DNA of 47,668 nucleotides from an uncultured Candidatus Poseidoniales archaeon. GTDB taxonomy: Archaea; Thermoplasmatota; Poseidoniia; Poseidoniales; Poseidoniaceae. Made by a program: the position numbers and the translations under genes. The stretch spans positions 1-47,668 of the forward strand of contig CAJJCP010000005.1 of the NCBI GenBank assembly GCA_905182715.1. Reading direction: 5' to 3'. This document shows, in pieces, positions 1-6,761 of this stretch. The notes under the pieces are model-generated. The model had not been told where the DNA came from, made no database searches, and saw nothing but the letters and a program-made list of their open reading frames with translations. How positions within the stretch are numbered: the first letter of the stretch is position 1; the number at the start of each line of letters is the position of its first letter.

Positions 1-110
1 CAGCGTGGTCATCACCGTCTTCGTCAGCATGGTCATCACCGTCTTCGTCAGCATGGTCATCACCGTCTTCGTCAGCATGGTCATCACCGTCTTCGTCGGC
101 ATGGTCATCA
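1..110 (-). repeat. 24-bp in-frame tandem repeats encoding HADEDGDD
   Basis: Four or more near-identical 24-base units, read on the minus strand as the octapeptide HADEDGDD, within the lipoprotein gene. The array continues out of the window on the left. Differences between units are synonymous or absent, which points to recent expansion. Confidence 0.85.
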
Positions 111-2509
111 TGACCTGCATGATCATCATGGCCGCCCTCGGCCATCAAGATGTGGAATTCAACATCCATTGGTAGAGCAAATCCATAGTCGCCTTCAGCG
201 TTAATGTGGATTTCAACGAAACCAGCAGGGTGTTCATCGTGTTCATCGTGTCCTTCCTCATGTCCTTCCATCGTTTCGAGGAAGTCAATGAGTTCTGTGA
301 CATTCAAAAGTTGGTTTCCATCAGCATCAGATGCGTTGAACAATTGTTTGATTTCATCAGCACTCATTTCAACATGTTCATCATGTTCGTCGTGTCCTTC
401 TTCATCATGTTCGTCGTGTCCTTCTTCATCATGTTCGTCATGTCCTTCTTCTTCATGTTCGTCATGTCCTTCTTCTTCATGATGTTCGAGTTCGATCCAA
501 AGGTAACCTTCACACTCTGCTTGAGTTGAGTTTGCCGCAACGTGTGTACCAGTGTTGTAGCATCCTGTGAAGGATGAACCGTCTGGCATGGTGCTGTTTT
601 CGAGGTAAGTGTACTGACCGCATGTTGTTTCATTGTCCATCGATACTTCGTGACTGACCGTGTTGTAACAGAAAGAATCGTCTTCCTCATGTTCGCCGTG
701 ATCGTCGCCGTGGTCGTCGCCGTGAGCGTCGTGGCTCATGTTCCAACCGGCCCAAAATTCATCCCAAGAAAGATGGCTGTCTTCGTCAGCATCGTAATCT
801 TCAAGCATGTGTTCTGCGGAAACATGGTGTTCATGTTCTTCCATCATGTTGATGAATGTACCAAGTTCGCTGAGGTTGAGCAGTGCATCACCGTCAACAT
901 CTGATTGGTTGAACATTTCCATCAATTCAGACATTTCTTCGGCTGAGTCCTCATCATGAGAATCATGTTCGTCGTGTCCTTCTTCATCATGTTCGTCATG
1001 TCCTTCTTCTTCATGTTCGTCATGTCCTTCTTCTTCATGATGTTCGAGTTCGATCCAAAGGTAACCTTCACACTCTGCTTGAGTTGAGTTTGCCGCAACG
1101 TGTGTACCAGTGTTGTAGCATCCTGTGAAGGATGAACCGTCTGGCATGGTGCTGTTTTCGAGGTAAGTGTACTGACCGCATGTTGTTTCATTGTCCATCG
1201 ATACTTCGTGACTGACCGTGTTGTAACAGAAAGAATCGTCTTCCTCATGTTCGCCGTGGTCGTCGCCGTGGTCGTCGTGGTCATCTCCCCAAGAGTTCCA
1301 GAATTCATCCCAAGAGAGGTGGCTGTCGTTGTTCATATCGAATTGTTCGAGCGCTTCTTCAGGAGTAAGAAGACCTTGGTGGTCATCGTGGTCGTCGTGG
1401 TCTGCGTGGTCGTCGTGGTCATCTTCCATCCACATGTGGCCAGCAGCTTCACAGTCTTCCTCAGTCGTGTGGTTTGTGTTTTGGTGCGATGAAGTATCGT
1501 GGCAGTAGTCGCCTTCATGGTCATCATGGCCATCTTCTTCCATCCAGGTGTGGCCAGCAGCTTCGCAATCGGCTTGGTTGTCGATGTCGTTGTTGGAATG
1601 GTCGCCCATGTTGTGGCAGACGCCGTGAATATCTTCTCCATGGTCATCATGTTCGTCACCGTGGTCGTGATGGGCGTGACCGCCGAGCATTTTGAGAACA
1701 GTCATTGTGAAATCTTCAGGGTGGTCCGCATCAAATTCGATGACATATTCGCCTTCTTCAAGGTGGAAGATGGAGATCATTGTATCAGCAGGACATCCGG
1801 TAGGGTTGGAAATGGTCTCTTCGGCTTCAATGTGAGCATGCCCTTCGTGTCCTTCTTCATCTGAATGTTCATCGTGAACTTCGGTTTCATTGTTTTCATC
1901 GTGACCGTCCTCATCAGCATGGTCTTCGCCTTCTTCATGAGGGAACGTGATGTTGTACGCAGTGTATTCTGCGTGAATTTCAGCATCGTTTGCGTGTTCT
2001 TCTTCGTCGGCAAGTTCAACATTTTCGTATGGTCCTACGGAGAGTGTCTTGCACAAATCTGATACGAGCAACGATTCGTAATCAAGCGTCTCTTCCCCAT
2101 CATGCATTGTGTGGACTTGGATTGAAGTTGGTGCAGCACTACCGAGGGATTCGAGCGTTGCATCGACCCAGGGTTCGAGCCCTAAACCGTGGTAAAAGAA
2201 CACATCAGCGTTTTGGAGTCGTATTAGATCTGATGTTGACGGTTCGTAATCGTGGACTGGGATGTTGTCAAGGCTCATGTATTCCATGTCGACATGTTCA
2301 CCAGCAATTGCTTTCACGAGTTCTCCGACGTGGTATGTAGAAACCATCACGGAACCCAGCATTCCAATATCAGTCGAATTGTTTCCATCATTTGTCATGT
2401 CAGTGGCTTCTTCAATGGTTTGAATATCCTCATCCCCAAGGCATCCAGCCAAACTGGATAAAATCATTATCGCACTTACAAAAATTGCTCGAACACTGTT
2501 GCTTCGCAT
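1..2509 (-). CDS. Giant ZnuA/TroA-like metal-binding lipoprotein with EF-hand and His-rich insert (partial, C-terminus beyond left edge)
   Basis: An uninterrupted minus-strand frame runs from ATG at 2509 to base 1 (836 codons, no stop). The start is a lipoprotein signal with lipobox LAGC (Cys23). Residues about 55-160 match the N-terminal lobe of zinc/manganese ABC-transporter binding proteins (PF01297): the motif VHDYEPS, with the family's first His ligand, then a stretch ending GLEPWVD. Where the family usually has a short His-rich loop, this protein has at least about 650 residues of His/Asp/Glu-rich sequence. It contains four canonical EF-hand loops (starting at residues 391, 537, 573, 728; for example DMNNDSHLSWDE), repeated Cys segments (DCEAAGHTW, DCEAAGHMW, ECEGYLW) and HDEHDEEG runs. 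The second family lobe is not reached, so it should lie outside the window. Likely role: extracytoplasmic capture of Zn2+ or Mn2+, perhaps with Ca2+ binding. No transporter subunits are visible here. Confidence 0.8.
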   Translation of the reverse strand, partial: MRSNSVRAIFVSAIMILSSLAGCLGDEDIQTIEEATDMTNDGNNSTDIGMLGSVMVSTYHVGELVKAIAGEHVDMEYMSLDNIPVHDYEPSTSDLIRLQNADVFFYHGLGLEPWVDATLESLGSAAPTSIQVHTMHDGEETLDYESLLVSDLCKTLSVGPYENVELADEEEHANDAEIHAEYTAYNITFPHEEGEDHADEDGHDENNETEVHDEHSDEEGHEGHAHIEAEETISNPTGCPADTMISIFHLEEGEYVIEFDADHPEDFTMTVLKMLGGHAHHDHGDEHDDHGEDIHGVCHNMGDHSNNDIDNQADCEAAGHTWMEEDGHDDHEGDYCHDTSSHQNTNHTTEEDCEAAGHMWMEDDHDDHADHDDHDDHQGLLTPEEALEQFDMNNDSHLSWDEFWNSWGDDHDDHGDDHGEHEEDDSFCYNTVSHEVSMDNETTCGQYTYLENSTMPDGSSFTGCYNTGTHVAANSTQAECEGYLWIELEHHEEEGHDEHEEEGHDEHDEEGHDEHDSHDEDSAEEMSELMEMFNQSDVDGDALLNLSELGTFINMMEEHEHHVSAEHMLEDYDADEDSHLSWDEFWAGWNMSHDAHGDDHGDDHGEHEEDDSFCYNTVSHEVSMDNETTCGQYTYLENSTMPDGSSFTGCYNTGTHVAANSTQAECEGYLWIELEHHEEEGHDEHEEEGHDEHDEEGHDEHDEEGHDEHDEHVEMSADEIKQLFNASDADGNQLLNVTELIDFLETMEGHEEGHDEHDEHPAGFVEIHINAEGDYGFALPMDVEFHILMAEGGHDDHAGHDDHADEDGDDHADEDGDDHADEDGDDHADEDGDDHA
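404..700. repeat. 297-bp perfect direct repeat, copy 1
   Basis: Bases 404-700 match bases 962-1258 at every position I compared, an offset of 558 bases (186 codons), in frame in the lipoprotein gene. They encode a Cys-containing segment (SFCYNTVSHEV to ECEGYLW) and a His-rich tail. Flanking sequence is related but diverged (first mismatches 403/961 and 701/1259). Confidence 0.9.
962..1258. repeat. 297-bp perfect direct repeat, copy 2
   Basis: Second copy of the repeat at 404-700. Both flanks code for similar EF-hand segments that have drifted apart, so the identical block is younger than the duplication itself, or has been homogenised by gene conversion. Confidence 0.9.
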
Positions 2510-3494: not shown

Positions 3495-6188
3495 ATGTCA
3501 ACAGGCAACGATGAGGAGGTTTTTCTCTCGCTTGATGATGACGATGTATTGGAAACACCCAAAGCAACGGAAAAAGCCACACGAAAACCTCGTGTAAAAA
3601 AGCCCAAAAAACCATCTGTAGCCTCGCAAGAAGTCCTCGATGCAGAAATTCTTGATGCCGTGATTATTCGACAAGCGACCGGTCAATTCGAAATTGGATG
3701 GGCGCTGATGGGCATGGATTGTCCTGACTGTGCGAGTAAAGCCACTCGTGCACTCAACATGCTCCCCCAGGTGACTGAAACAGCAGTATCTGCGACAGCC
3801 GGGACGGTCAAATTAACCGTTGACCTTGAACACGGTTCTCTCTCTCAAGCCTCTTCTGTTCTACGTTCACTTGGGCATGCCCCAGATGTGGGGTTCAATG
3901 AGCTCATAGGAGTTCGAAGTTCACAAGTTGCTCACCGAAACGGTGTCGACCAAAGGAAACTCGGGAAAATCTTCCGTCAACAACCAGGAATCCTCGATGT
4001 TGAATTCACCGATGATGAGCGAATTCTTCTCCAATTCGCTCCTGATGTACCGCAAGAGTTGTTCAAACTCCGCGACTCATATATCTCAGAAGTCACAGGT
4101 GCTCCCGTCAAGTATGTTCCCGCAGAATCCTATCGTATTCGTCCTGATCAGTGGCGTTTAATCGGCGGTGGTATTGCACTACCTCTTTTGGTGTTGGTTA
4201 TTATCGGAGAACTCATCGGCTTCTCTTCTTTTTTCATAGGACTGATTGCAGTACCTGGATTGGTTATCGGGGGTTCGCAGATGTTCAAAGAAGCCTTTGC
4301 CAGTATTCGTAACCGTCAACTTGGATTTCAAGTACTGACAAGTTTGGCTGTCATAGGTGCAGCAGTTCTTGGAATGTGGGAAGAGGCACTGGTTGTTGCG
4401 ATTCTTGTCGCCTTTACAGCTCACCTTGAAGGCGATGCACTTGTCAAAGCCCGAAAAGCAATGCAAGGTGGCCTTGACCGTCTTCCTCGGACTGCACGGA
4501 GGGTTACGGGGAACAAACCTAAGAAAATAGAACCTAAAAAAGCGCTCGCCTTTGCTTTGCAGATGTCTTCCCCAGCCCCGCTTCTCGGCGCAGATGGTTG
4601 TGAACTTCCAGATCCTGAGGCTGAACATGAATCAGTTCCGATTGAATTGATTCAAATTGGTGATTTGATCGAGGTGCGGAGTGGCGAATTAATCCCTGCA
4701 GATGGAGTGATTACCGAAGGTCACGGTTCTTTGGATAAGGCACCATTGACTGGAGAATCAGTACCTGTTGAAGTTTCATTAGGCGATGAAATACAAGCAG
4801 GCCTCGTTCTAGCTCGGGGTCCAGTCATCATCAAAGTCATTGCAGTCGGAGAGGATACTCGCTTGTCTGAATTAATTGACGCTGTTCATACATTTCGTGA
4901 AGAACCTCCTCGATTGCAGAGTAGTATTGAACTTTTTACGGCCATCTGGGTTCCAATTGTTCTTACCGGTGCAATCGTCATTTGGTATTTCTTATTCCCT
5001 GACGATTGGAAAGTCATCTTACTCATTTGGGTTGTTGCATGCCCGTGTGCTTTGTTACTTGCAACCCCGGTTCCTCACGCAGCAGCCCTTTCACGTTCTG
5101 CTCATTTTGGAGCAATAGCCCGAGGAGGAGATGTCATCGAACGTCTTTCAAAGGTCAACCATATTCTTCTCGATAAAACAGGTACACTGACATCAGGAAA
5201 ACCGAGGTTGGGTGAGGTCATCATGGCGAATGGGCGTCAACTCTCATCGGCATTGAAACTCGCTGGCGGCCTTGAAGCCCGTTCATCTCACCCCTATGCC
5301 CTCTCGGTGATGGAGTACCTTCTTGAGAAGCAAGTATCTCCTTCACAAGTGATTGGACTTTCGGATATTGAAGCAGGTGTTAAAGGCAGAGCCAGTGGGA
5401 AAGAAGTGATGTTTATTCGGTTCGACCGTTCAAAACAACTCAACGTTCAGGTTCCAAAAGAACTTCAAGAAGCATACAGTGTAGCTGAAACCAAAGGTCA
5501 TGGAGCAAGCCTTCTGGTTCGTGATGGTGAAGGGATTGCATTGTTTACCTTCATTCATGACGATACCCATTCAGGTAGTAAGGAATTGATTGCAGGATTG
5601 AGGAAGCGTTCAATCAATGTTGAAATCCTATCAGGTGACCATCAAGCTGCAGTTTCAGCCTTTGCCAAAAGTGTCGGGCTTCCAGTCTCATCCGCTCACG
5701 GCGGATTATCTCCTGAACAAAAAGTCCAATGGGTGCAAAGCCGTTCCCAAACTCACATCACAATGATGGTAGGTGATGGTTTCAATGATGCCGCCGCACT
5801 TGCTATTGCCGATGTAGGAGTTGCAGTAGGAACTGGAGAAACGGTCAATCTTGAAGCAGCTGACGTACTTATTCCAAGTGATAACCCTCTCATGCTTACC
5901 GACCTCATCGACTTGGCACGCCAAGCGCAAAGAATCCTCTTGGGCAATCTTATCATCACCGTAGGAATCACACTCTCGCTGGTAGCAGCGGTGATTCTAC
6001 AACTCTATGACGAACTTTGGGTTGGCGTCCTCATTCATGAAGCATCGGTCATTCTTGTGATCTTGAATGGAGCACGCCTTGCGGGAGGCGAAGGGGCTAT
6101 TGCTCTTCTCTCCTCGATTTTTGTCTCATTATGGCGGGATACAAAAGAAGCGTTTGAACTTCTCAAAATGAGATATCTTCCCGCCTGA
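3495..6188 (+). CDS. P1B-type heavy-metal-transporting ATPase (probably Zn/Cd/Co efflux)
   Basis: 897 aa. A Lys-rich N-terminus is followed by a heavy-metal-associated domain with GMDCPDCAS (Cys76, Cys79) and a second domain-like stretch without cysteines (about 150-210). The P-type core is complete: TGES in the actuator domain, CPC at 516-518 in the metal-binding helix, DKTGTLT with phosphorylated Asp560, and GDGFNDAAA near 760. About eight membrane helices are expected. The last helix has HEASVILVILNGARL (His848), like the HEG(S/T) motif of the Co/Zn/Fe-type P1B-4 subgroup, whereas CPC is typical of Cu and Zn/Cd pumps, so the substrate is not settled. Start ATG at 3495 follows GAGGAG by six bases. 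A winged-helix regulator gene follows, a usual arrangement for metal-efflux operons. Confidence 0.9.
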   Translation: MSTGNDEEVFLSLDDDDVLETPKATEKATRKPRVKKPKKPSVASQEVLDAEILDAVIIRQATGQFEIGWALMGMDCPDCASKATRALNMLPQVTETAVSATAGTVKLTVDLEHGSLSQASSVLRSLGHAPDVGFNELIGVRSSQVAHRNGVDQRKLGKIFRQQPGILDVEFTDDERILLQFAPDVPQELFKLRDSYISEVTGAPVKYVPAESYRIRPDQWRLIGGGIALPLLVLVIIGELIGFSSFFIGLIAVPGLVIGGSQMFKEAFASIRNRQLGFQVLTSLAVIGAAVLGMWEEALVVAILVAFTAHLEGDALVKARKAMQGGLDRLPRTARRVTGNKPKKIEPKKALAFALQMSSPAPLLGADGCELPDPEAEHESVPIELIQIGDLIEVRSGELIPADGVITEGHGSLDKAPLTGESVPVEVSLGDEIQAGLVLARGPVIIKVIAVGEDTRLSELIDAVHTFREEPPRLQSSIELFTAIWVPIVLTGAIVIWYFLFPDDWKVILLIWVVACPCALLLATPVPHAAALSRSAHFGAIARGGDVIERLSKVNHILLDKTGTLTSGKPRLGEVIMANGRQLSSALKLAGGLEARSSHPYALSVMEYLLEKQVSPSQVIGLSDIEAGVKGRASGKEVMFIRFDRSKQLNVQVPKELQEAYSVAETKGHGASLLVRDGEGIALFTFIHDDTHSGSKELIAGLRKRSINVEILSGDHQAAVSAFAKSVGLPVSSAHGGLSPEQKVQWVQSRSQTHITMMVGDGFNDAAALAIADVGVAVGTGETVNLEAADVLIPSDNPLMLTDLIDLARQAQRILLGNLIITVGITLSLVAAVILQLYDELWVGVLIHEASVILVILNGARLAGGEGAIALLSSIFVSLWRDTKEAFELLKMRYLPA

Positions 6189-6257: not shown

Positions 6258-6761
6258 ATGGCACGAGTTCGAGCAGACCCAGTCACAACCGCACTCGCCC
6301 ACCCAACTCGCCGAGCATTGTATATCGCTTTGGCAAACAAAGAAGAAATGAGTACAGTTCAACTTCAAGCCGAAGTGAATGTTGAACGTTACAATCTTTA
6401 TCATCACTTGAAAAAATTAGCATCGTTGAACTTAGTTGAAAATCATCGTGACGCCGGACGTTCACGATGGTGGAAAAAAACGACACACATTGATTTACCT
6501 GAAATCCTTTCACCATCAATTGACCGTCCTATGACAACACTGACTTCAGTCGTACCTGGAGACCTTTCTTTACTCCCTGAGACACTTGCTGATGCTGTTG
6601 TTGAAGGTGGAGAGATACATATCATTCAGCTTGAAGGTTCCAGGGACCAAGTAGGGGCGAAACTCATGCTCCAAATATTAGCCAAAGAGCATGGAATTGA
6701 ACTGGATTTACCTTGGAACTTTTTACCAGTGAGAATTGCTTTGATTGCAAATAAAAAGTGA
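6258..6761 (+). CDS. Winged-helix transcriptional regulator, ArsR-like
   Basis: 167 aa. The N-terminal 85 residues form a winged helix-turn-helix: ALAHPTRRALYIAL, then MSTVQLQAEVNVERYNLYHH as helix-turn-helix and HRDAGRSRWW as the wing. This resembles ArsR/HTH_20 archaeal regulators. The C-terminal half (about 90-167) is not recognised and may sense a ligand or mediate dimerisation; no Cys/His cluster for metal sensing is obvious. It lies 69 bases after the metal ATPase on the same strand, so control of that pump is a reasonable inference. GGTGAGGAG abuts the ATG. Confidence 0.75.
   Translation: MARVRADPVTTALAHPTRRALYIALANKEEMSTVQLQAEVNVERYNLYHHLKKLASLNLVENHRDAGRSRWWKKTTHIDLPEILSPSIDRPMTTLTSVVPGDLSLLPETLADAVVEGGEIHIIQLEGSRDQVGAKLMLQILAKEHGIELDLPWNFLPVRIALIANKK

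Follow-up and report, generated by a model that had tools for sequence, protein, structure and literature searches.

A ZnuA-family lipoprotein of Poseidoniales archaea with a modular insert at its His-rich loop, a putative zinc antenna

The DNA analyzed here, called the window throughout, is the whole of contig C5 (CAJJCP010000005.1; 47,668 nucleotides) of an uncultured Candidatus Poseidoniales archaeon, one of 36 contigs in a draft genome that is 73% complete. Its first bases cut through the gene of a giant lipoprotein of the ZnuA family, in which a long modular insert interrupts the metal-binding fold at a point where known ZnuA proteins have a His-rich loop of tens of residues. We think it likely, if far from settled, that this lipoprotein serves a zinc importer and carries its own putative zinc antenna or chaperone, and the extra loop segment probably helps to gather scarce zinc.

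The core fold and its enlarged loop

The reading frame begins with ATG and runs, stop-free as the first-pass annotation had reported, until it leaves the window at base 1, which is the end of the contig and not of the gene. Its features, in gene order, are:

2 to 2509, minus strand: giant ZnuA-family lipoprotein gene, its 5' 836 codons (open reading frame), continuing on contig C29 to C29 base 2141
2441 to 2509, minus strand: signal peptide and lipobox SSLAGC with Cys 23 (by motif)
2105 to 2350, minus strand: N-terminal portion of the ZnuA fold (PF01297 positions 1-83), including the first metal-ligand motif, PVHDY
2 to 2074, minus strand: insert at the His-rich-loop position, about 690 amino acids inside the window (Pfam, AdcA alignment and composition)
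1658 to 1807, minus strand: module M1, IFHLEEGEYVIEF...GGHAHHDH, the N-terminal beta bookend (alignment of relatives)
1538 to 1618, minus strand: Cys/His/Trp repeat (module M3), copy one (sequence and Cys positions)
1424 to 1504, minus strand: Cys/His/Trp repeat (module M3), copy two (sequence and Cys positions)
1304 to 1339, minus strand: EF-hand loop 1, DMNNDSHLSWDE (strict loop pattern)
866 to 901, minus strand: EF-hand loop 2, DVDGDALLNLSE (Pfam and strict loop pattern)
758 to 793, minus strand: EF-hand loop 3, DADEDSHLSWDE (Pfam and strict loop pattern)
293 to 328, minus strand: EF-hand loop 4, DADGNQLLNVTE (Pfam and strict loop pattern)
110 to 223, minus strand: module M7, EIHINAEGDYGFALPMDVEFHILMAEGGHDDHAGH, the C-terminal beta bookend (converted from L001:1368-1481 via the identical overlap with C29)

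A Pfam scan of the window protein found PF01297 at residues 54-135 (profile positions 1-83 of 263, E 1.2e-16). The insert, residues 146-836, holds 86 His, 109 Asp and 116 Glu, with 3 Lys and no Arg. The initial description of a metal-binding lipoprotein of an ATP-binding cassette (ABC) system with a vastly enlarged His-rich region stands. The lipobox L-A-G-C with its Cys 23 is invariant in 18 of 18 aligned relatives. The second ZnuA (TroA) lobe with its ligands, which the first-pass annotation had proposed to look for, was recovered from contig C29 of the same genome in a 712-codon frame, and an ATPase gene and a gene read as the permease come next. Provided that C29 directly continues the window, arithmetic gives a complete gene of about 1019 amino acids. 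The window and C29 hold one half each; in intact relatives the halves share one frame, and in CM001443.1, a single-contig genome (2.06 Mb) of Marine Group II (MGII, the Poseidoniales), the gene is one intact frame of 856 codons.

Alignment with pneumococcal AdcA and with YcdH of B. subtilis locates the insert. Similarity resumes just before DPHSWLSP, which corresponds to their DPHVWLSP, and it is this motif that the His/Asp/Glu-rich stretch of AdcA and YcdH precedes; because the alignment places the insert where that stretch lies, we read it as an enlarged classical His-rich loop. The putative metal ligands were followed in an alignment of 34 of the 38 full-length frames, numbered after the relative L053. 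H75, H683, H754 and E829 are invariant in all 34 and pair, in that order, with three His and one Glu of AdcA, which we take to be the AdcA zinc ligands. Three His and one acidic residue are the ligand set of Cluster A-I metal-binding lipoproteins (PF01297, ZnuA family).

AdcA of Streptococcus pneumoniae was the best match in the PDB by sequence (E 3.3e-36), and zinc-bound AdcA was the top Foldseek match for a structural model of L053 (E 9.5e-12, 181 columns). Assignment to a single named type stopped short of the model cut-offs. AztC was the top NCBIfam model for all six proteins scanned, with a best score of 126 bits against a cut-off of 350 (NF040870), while the best scores for the ZnuA equivalog (PRK09545, NF007091) and the AdcA model (NF033605) were 61.3 bits against 268 and 68.3 bits against 700. 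The AztD model matched none of the six in the same scan, and Pfam scans gave no match to a ZinT domain.

Occurrence and anatomy of the insert

A genome scan gave 131 relatives, and the best 80 of them were retained as loci. These best 80 come from Poseidoniales/MGII (including Poseidoniaceae and Thalassarchaeaceae), Marine Group III (MGIII) and unplaced Euryarchaeota, apart from a single contig that sits in a Rhodobiaceae bin. With the gene spread across the lineage we reject the notion of a unique oddity; the insert, which had been put forward as the window's strongest novelty, turned out in the homologue search to be typical of MGII and MGIII copies. The Rhodobiaceae contig (L087; CALDQY010000237.1) carries an MGII-type giant ZnuA and probably reflects contamination or mis-binning. 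A scan of viral contigs for relatives found none.

Forty-three of the best 80 loci yielded a frame that contains both halves. In all 43 a znuC homologue lies downstream of the gene on its strand, and in 42 a permease does so too (803 bases are left at the one miss); both also follow in each of 19 further loci, many of which hold the same genes. The ATPase is assigned by family search and the permease by reading. One genome (G077) carries two different giant ZnuA genes (L049 and L050; 678 and 818 amino acids), and downstream of each lie separate homologues of znuC and the permease.

Lengths were surveyed in 49 distinct frames with both halves, of which 7 have ambiguous residues and among which near-identical frames are included. 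These proteins measure 527-1146 amino acids (median 865), and the stretch from GLGLEPW to xHSW takes up 250-850 of them (median 581); in ordinary AdcA the corresponding stretch, read off the alignment, is roughly 45-50 residues. Outside the class, among the matches listed, most ZnuA frames have about 260-450 codons. The longest among these matches are G298 (703) and G203 (697), both propeller-like, followed by G311 (605) and G099 (593), the last with an unbroken PF01297 match, and G104, G114 and G304 have 464-492 codons.

The insert itself is modular. Its bookends M1 (IFHLEEGEYVLEF...GGHAHH) and M7 (IHVEAEGDYGFALP...GGHDDH) were present in every one of the 18 proteins aligned first and, by strict patterns, in 42 of 49 frames each; they are alike and may stem from an internal duplication. 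Between them lie optional modules, namely Cys/His/Trp repeats, EF-hands, M2 (FEWAGIF, about 130 amino acids) and M5 (WYWQLMLWN). EF-hand loops that fit the strict pattern occur in 28 of 38 full-length proteins (34 of the 49 frames). The window protein has four such canonical loops, at residues 391, 537, 573 and 728, which bears out the number first proposed; shuffled inserts contained a mean of 0.06, and none of 5000 shuffles gave four. An EF-hand pair (PF13499) also scored above its gathering score (43.6 bits against 30, E 3.7e-11), which together with the canonical loops places the protein in the EF-hand calcium-binding family, and calcium binding is predicted.

Four His of the insert (H217, H220, H274 and H637) do not vary among the 34 aligned proteins, and seven others that were checked are kept in at least 31 of 34. 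The ratio of nonsynonymous to synonymous substitution rates (dN/dS) was measured in six pairs, one of them saturated; in the other five it was 0.084-0.136 for the insert, against 0.023-0.145 in the two flanking parts, all values being approximate owing to the repetitive linkers. The AlphaFold2 model of L053 (mean predicted local distance difference test, pLDDT, 74.9; predicted template modeling score, pTM, 0.49) is confident for the ZnuA core and the EF-hand helices and has strands in the bookends at 239-269 and 602-628; given the low pTM, the relative placement of the parts is not fixed by the model. In a second model, of L123 (mean pLDDT 67.2), M2 (roughly residues 533-636) is mostly of high confidence and M5 of low confidence.

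A search of 292 Thermoplasmatota genomes found M2 in 10, each belonging to the window's class. In nine it lies in the frame with the ZnuA match, and in the tenth (G072) it is on the same contig in a different frame, about 1.2 kb upstream of that match. It gave no match in Pfam or the PDB at E 0.2 or below, and it can be seen at L112:7376-7798 and in ten other sequences of alignment A5. Several candidate assignments were rejected. M5 as a DUF4430/transcobalamin-like domain was not significant (one of 12 members at E 0.3; transcobalamin-1 at E 0.64), LDL-receptor-A-like repeats, a further optional module in a few proteins, stayed below threshold (E 0.037) and a PRKCSH-like match (E 5.9e-5) under its own cut-off, and homology of M1 and M2 to loop inserts of other Thermoplasmatota was weak (M1 with L168, E 0.01; M1 with L167, E 0.042; M2 with L170, E 0.022). 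M7 matched nothing below E 0.5 among those inserts. An LDL-receptor-A-like calcium signature (DGTEDCGDGSDE) can be read in an archaeal ZnuA insert at L045:7465-7716, under the Pfam threshold.

Zinc gathering and competing readings

On the reading that we favor, the protein would be the lipoprotein that binds substrate for a zinc ABC importer of the ZnuA/AztC/AdcA kind in Poseidoniales, with the His-rich loop beside the metal cleft expanded into a modular surface antenna. As suggested by the family, the lipid-anchored core would hold one Zn2+ through three His and one Glu and hand it over to the ATPase and permease of the importer. Zn2+, which is very dilute in seawater, could be captured by the acidic His-rich linkers together with the two conserved beta modules that bear His; these parts would bind it with low affinity but high capacity and deliver it to the cleft close by, as an in-cis counterpart of ZinT, the AdcA C-terminal domain or AztD. 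EF-hands, Cys repeats and the other modules would act as rigid or sticky spacers, the EF-hands being permanently loaded with calcium. What the analysis shows directly is the order of the domains, the conserved ligands, the position of the loop, the operon, the spread across the lineage and the low dN/dS; the identity of the metal, its collection and its transfer to the cleft, and the part played by calcium, are inferred. That catching, storage and delivery of zinc are all united in this single-chain importer component is a tentative proposal, and we hold it as rather doubtful.

There is precedent for such a role. The His-rich loop and C-terminal domain of AdcA are reported to aid zinc uptake jointly under restriction (PMC7858048). 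In other Thermoplasmatota, two ZnuA-family proteins of 694 amino acids (L164:1461-2588 and L163:1048-2190) have a propeller-like insert in the same loop. These inserts are about 380 amino acids long and 37% identical to each other. That of L164 matches PQQ_2 (E 2.3e-5, below its cut-off) and the AztD model (E 9.8e-8, 31.1 bits against a cut-off of 400), while that of L163, despite its homology to the former, gave no match to AztD. A profile of the two inserts found WD40-type proteins at E values of at least 1e-4 over short stretches, and nothing named AztD in the PDB up to E 1. AztD is described as handing zinc straight to AztC, a transfer that requires the flexible loop of AztC (PMC6689063), and the AztD-like insert in the L164 loop together with this transfer supports, without proving, the loop as a site of zinc delivery.

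Several points weigh against a zinc antenna. The AztD resemblance concerns one of the two propeller-like inserts and lies far below the cut-off. The family occurs in only about half of the sampled genomes: PF01297 is present in 56 of 99 relatives, in 8 of the 19 of those that are at least 90% complete, and in 148 of 293 genomes of the phylum sample. The His/Asp linkers of the L053 model have pLDDT below 50 and are predicted to be disordered. The metal-related genes beside the window gene have a weak link to it, a P-type ATPase and an ArsR-like gene lying close upstream in 2 of the 43 loci (L054 and L064), in another order and orientation than in the window. Since M3- and M5-like stretches occur in other proteins of the genome, some of the insert may amount to surface material of a generic kind. 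In AdcA, deletion of either accessory region alone is reported to have no significant effect (PMC7858048), and the His-rich region of ZrgA, an unrelated protein, is reported as not essential for function (PMC9820375); by these two precedents the giant loop may matter little.

The strongest rival takes the insert to be mainly a structural or adhesive surface stalk of shuffled extracellular modules, with the core alone handling zinc and the acidity reflecting salt adaptation. It would account for the M3-like stretches in fasciclin-like and PhnD-like proteins of the same genome, for the M5-like stretches in a SCO1-like protein and its adjoining frame (all named by reading), for the 12 EF-hand pair matches in that genome, two of them on this gene's contigs (C5 and C29), and for the wide variation of the optional modules among species. 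It fits poorly with bookends M1 and M7 whose His are nearly invariant while the sequence between them varies, with an insertion site that is the His-rich loop, and with the restriction of M2 to ZnuA frames in nine of its 10 genomes and to another frame of the same contig in the tenth. We regard this explanation as unlikely on balance, yet as one to be reckoned with. The proteins concerned are worth noting for themselves. The SCO1/SenC copper-chaperone-like protein is at L190:3967-4866 (minus strand), with the other M5-like stretch in the adjoining frame at L190:3303-4037 (minus strand), and a lipoprotein at L191:1262-3376 (plus strand) has two tandem PhnD-like copies, the second with a Cys-module-like stretch inserted near its end. 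The repeated Cys motif noticed at first pass is present in the insert; it need not bind metal, since it also occurs in other proteins of this genome.

A calcium-switched metal buffer, in which EF-hand calcium would tune the affinity for zinc in the manner of S100A12, seems improbable to us. The EF-hand pairs are genuine, but the strict loop pattern goes unmatched in 10 of the 38 full-length relatives. In addition, the open ocean has a high calcium concentration that hardly varies, so that the sites should be permanently filled and have little to sense. With EF-hands optional, and EF-hand pairs elsewhere in the genome, calcium sensing is unsupported; EF-hand pairs, like the M3- and M5-like stretches, are better read as structural modules than as sensors. 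Of the suggested metal trap or buffer that senses Ca2+, the trap remains the best reading. The precedent on the side of the switch is the reported calcium dependence of zinc binding by S100A12 (PMC4762610). EF-hand pair matches occurred in 1 of 14 control genomes, and modules of calcium-binding-domain protein families have already been noted as specific to the two Poseidoniales families (PMC9258230).

Among known systems the nearest by both sequence and fold is AdcA, which has a short His-rich loop at the same point. The extra domain of AdcA is C-terminal and ZinT-like, whereas the extra sequence of the giant ZnuA lies inside the loop. ZnuA of Gram-negative bacteria shares the PF01297 fold, the loop position and the operon with ATPase and permease, and differs in its short loop. 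AdcA resembles the putative antenna further in that its accessory regions are reported to aid zinc recruitment (PMC7858048). AztC of Paracoccus denitrificans is close by model rank and by the L164 insert, but all six scanned proteins score far below its cut-off and the zinc metallochaperone AztD is a separate protein (PMC6689063). ZrgA of Vibrio cholerae, which belongs to a zinc importer, has a His-rich region of unusual length that provides extra zinc sites in vitro, although it is described as having no homology to the classical family (PMC9820375).

A zinc transporter of MGII has already been published: Rinke et al. (2018; PMC6461757) reported that most Poseidoniales have one while deep-water genera lack it, and regarded it as likely to be an adaptation to scarce zinc; it is probably the same transporter as the giant-ZnuA system. 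The main text of that paper contains neither "EF-hand" nor "calcium", and its relevant passages leave the protein architecture unmentioned. A literature search of titles and abstract openings, covering few subscription papers, found no earlier description of a giant-loop ZnuA. According to that paper, no planktonic archaea are more abundant than MGII in the surface ocean, where low free zinc limits the growth of phytoplankton (PMC6461757). If the antenna reading is true, the uptake protein has a collecting domain of its own, and this would reveal how MGII cells compete for zinc. The position of the loop offers a test case for a zinc-delivery role of loops across the protein family, and M1/M7 and M2 are good targets for structure determination.

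The contig break and the neighboring genes

The order of parts within this particular gene is less secure than the architecture. The 1265 bases at the contig end are identical to C29 326-1590, and upstream of this shared stretch the contigs diverge (1265/1266), into EF-hand 1 in the window and into module M5 in C29. Three repeat features lie in or next to the shared stretch:

1 to 110, minus strand: 24-nucleotide tandem repeat (DDHADEDG), 4.6 copies, inside which the contig breaks
962 to 1261, minus strand: 300-nucleotide direct repeat, the copy that comes first along the gene (Cys repeats and EEGHDEH linker)
404 to 703, minus strand: 300-nucleotide direct repeat, the copy that comes second along the gene

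The two 300-nucleotide copies, both inside the coding region, are 100% identical, and the divergence of the contigs falls at the outer edge of the repeat; for these reasons it is insecure how the parts of this gene are ordered and in how many copies they occur. The difference between C5 and C29 could represent, with some uncertainty, two population variants or a repeat-driven assembly ambiguity, and the repeat may have arisen by recent duplication, gene conversion or an assembly effect. A contig end within tandem repeats, an exact repeat and a shared stretch entered by two different upstream sequences are what an assembly artefact would leave had it fused a ZnuA gene with the gene of an EF-hand protein, but the architecture is a single open frame in many other assemblies, including the 2.06-Mb single-contig genome, and we consider such a fusion hardly credible. 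A chimera is therefore rejected for the architecture on the strength of the intact frames in relatives, and the doubt is limited to the order and copy number of the parts within this one gene.

Beside the window gene lie genes for a haloacid dehalogenase (HAD) phosphatase, a P-type ATPase and an ArsR-like protein, all open frames with family matches. The latter two are:

3495 to 6188, plus strand: heavy-metal P1B-type ATPase, above the cut-off of the cadmium family and below that of the copper family
6258 to 6761, plus strand: ArsR/SmtB-like regulator, scoring 45.5 bits against a family cut-off of 55

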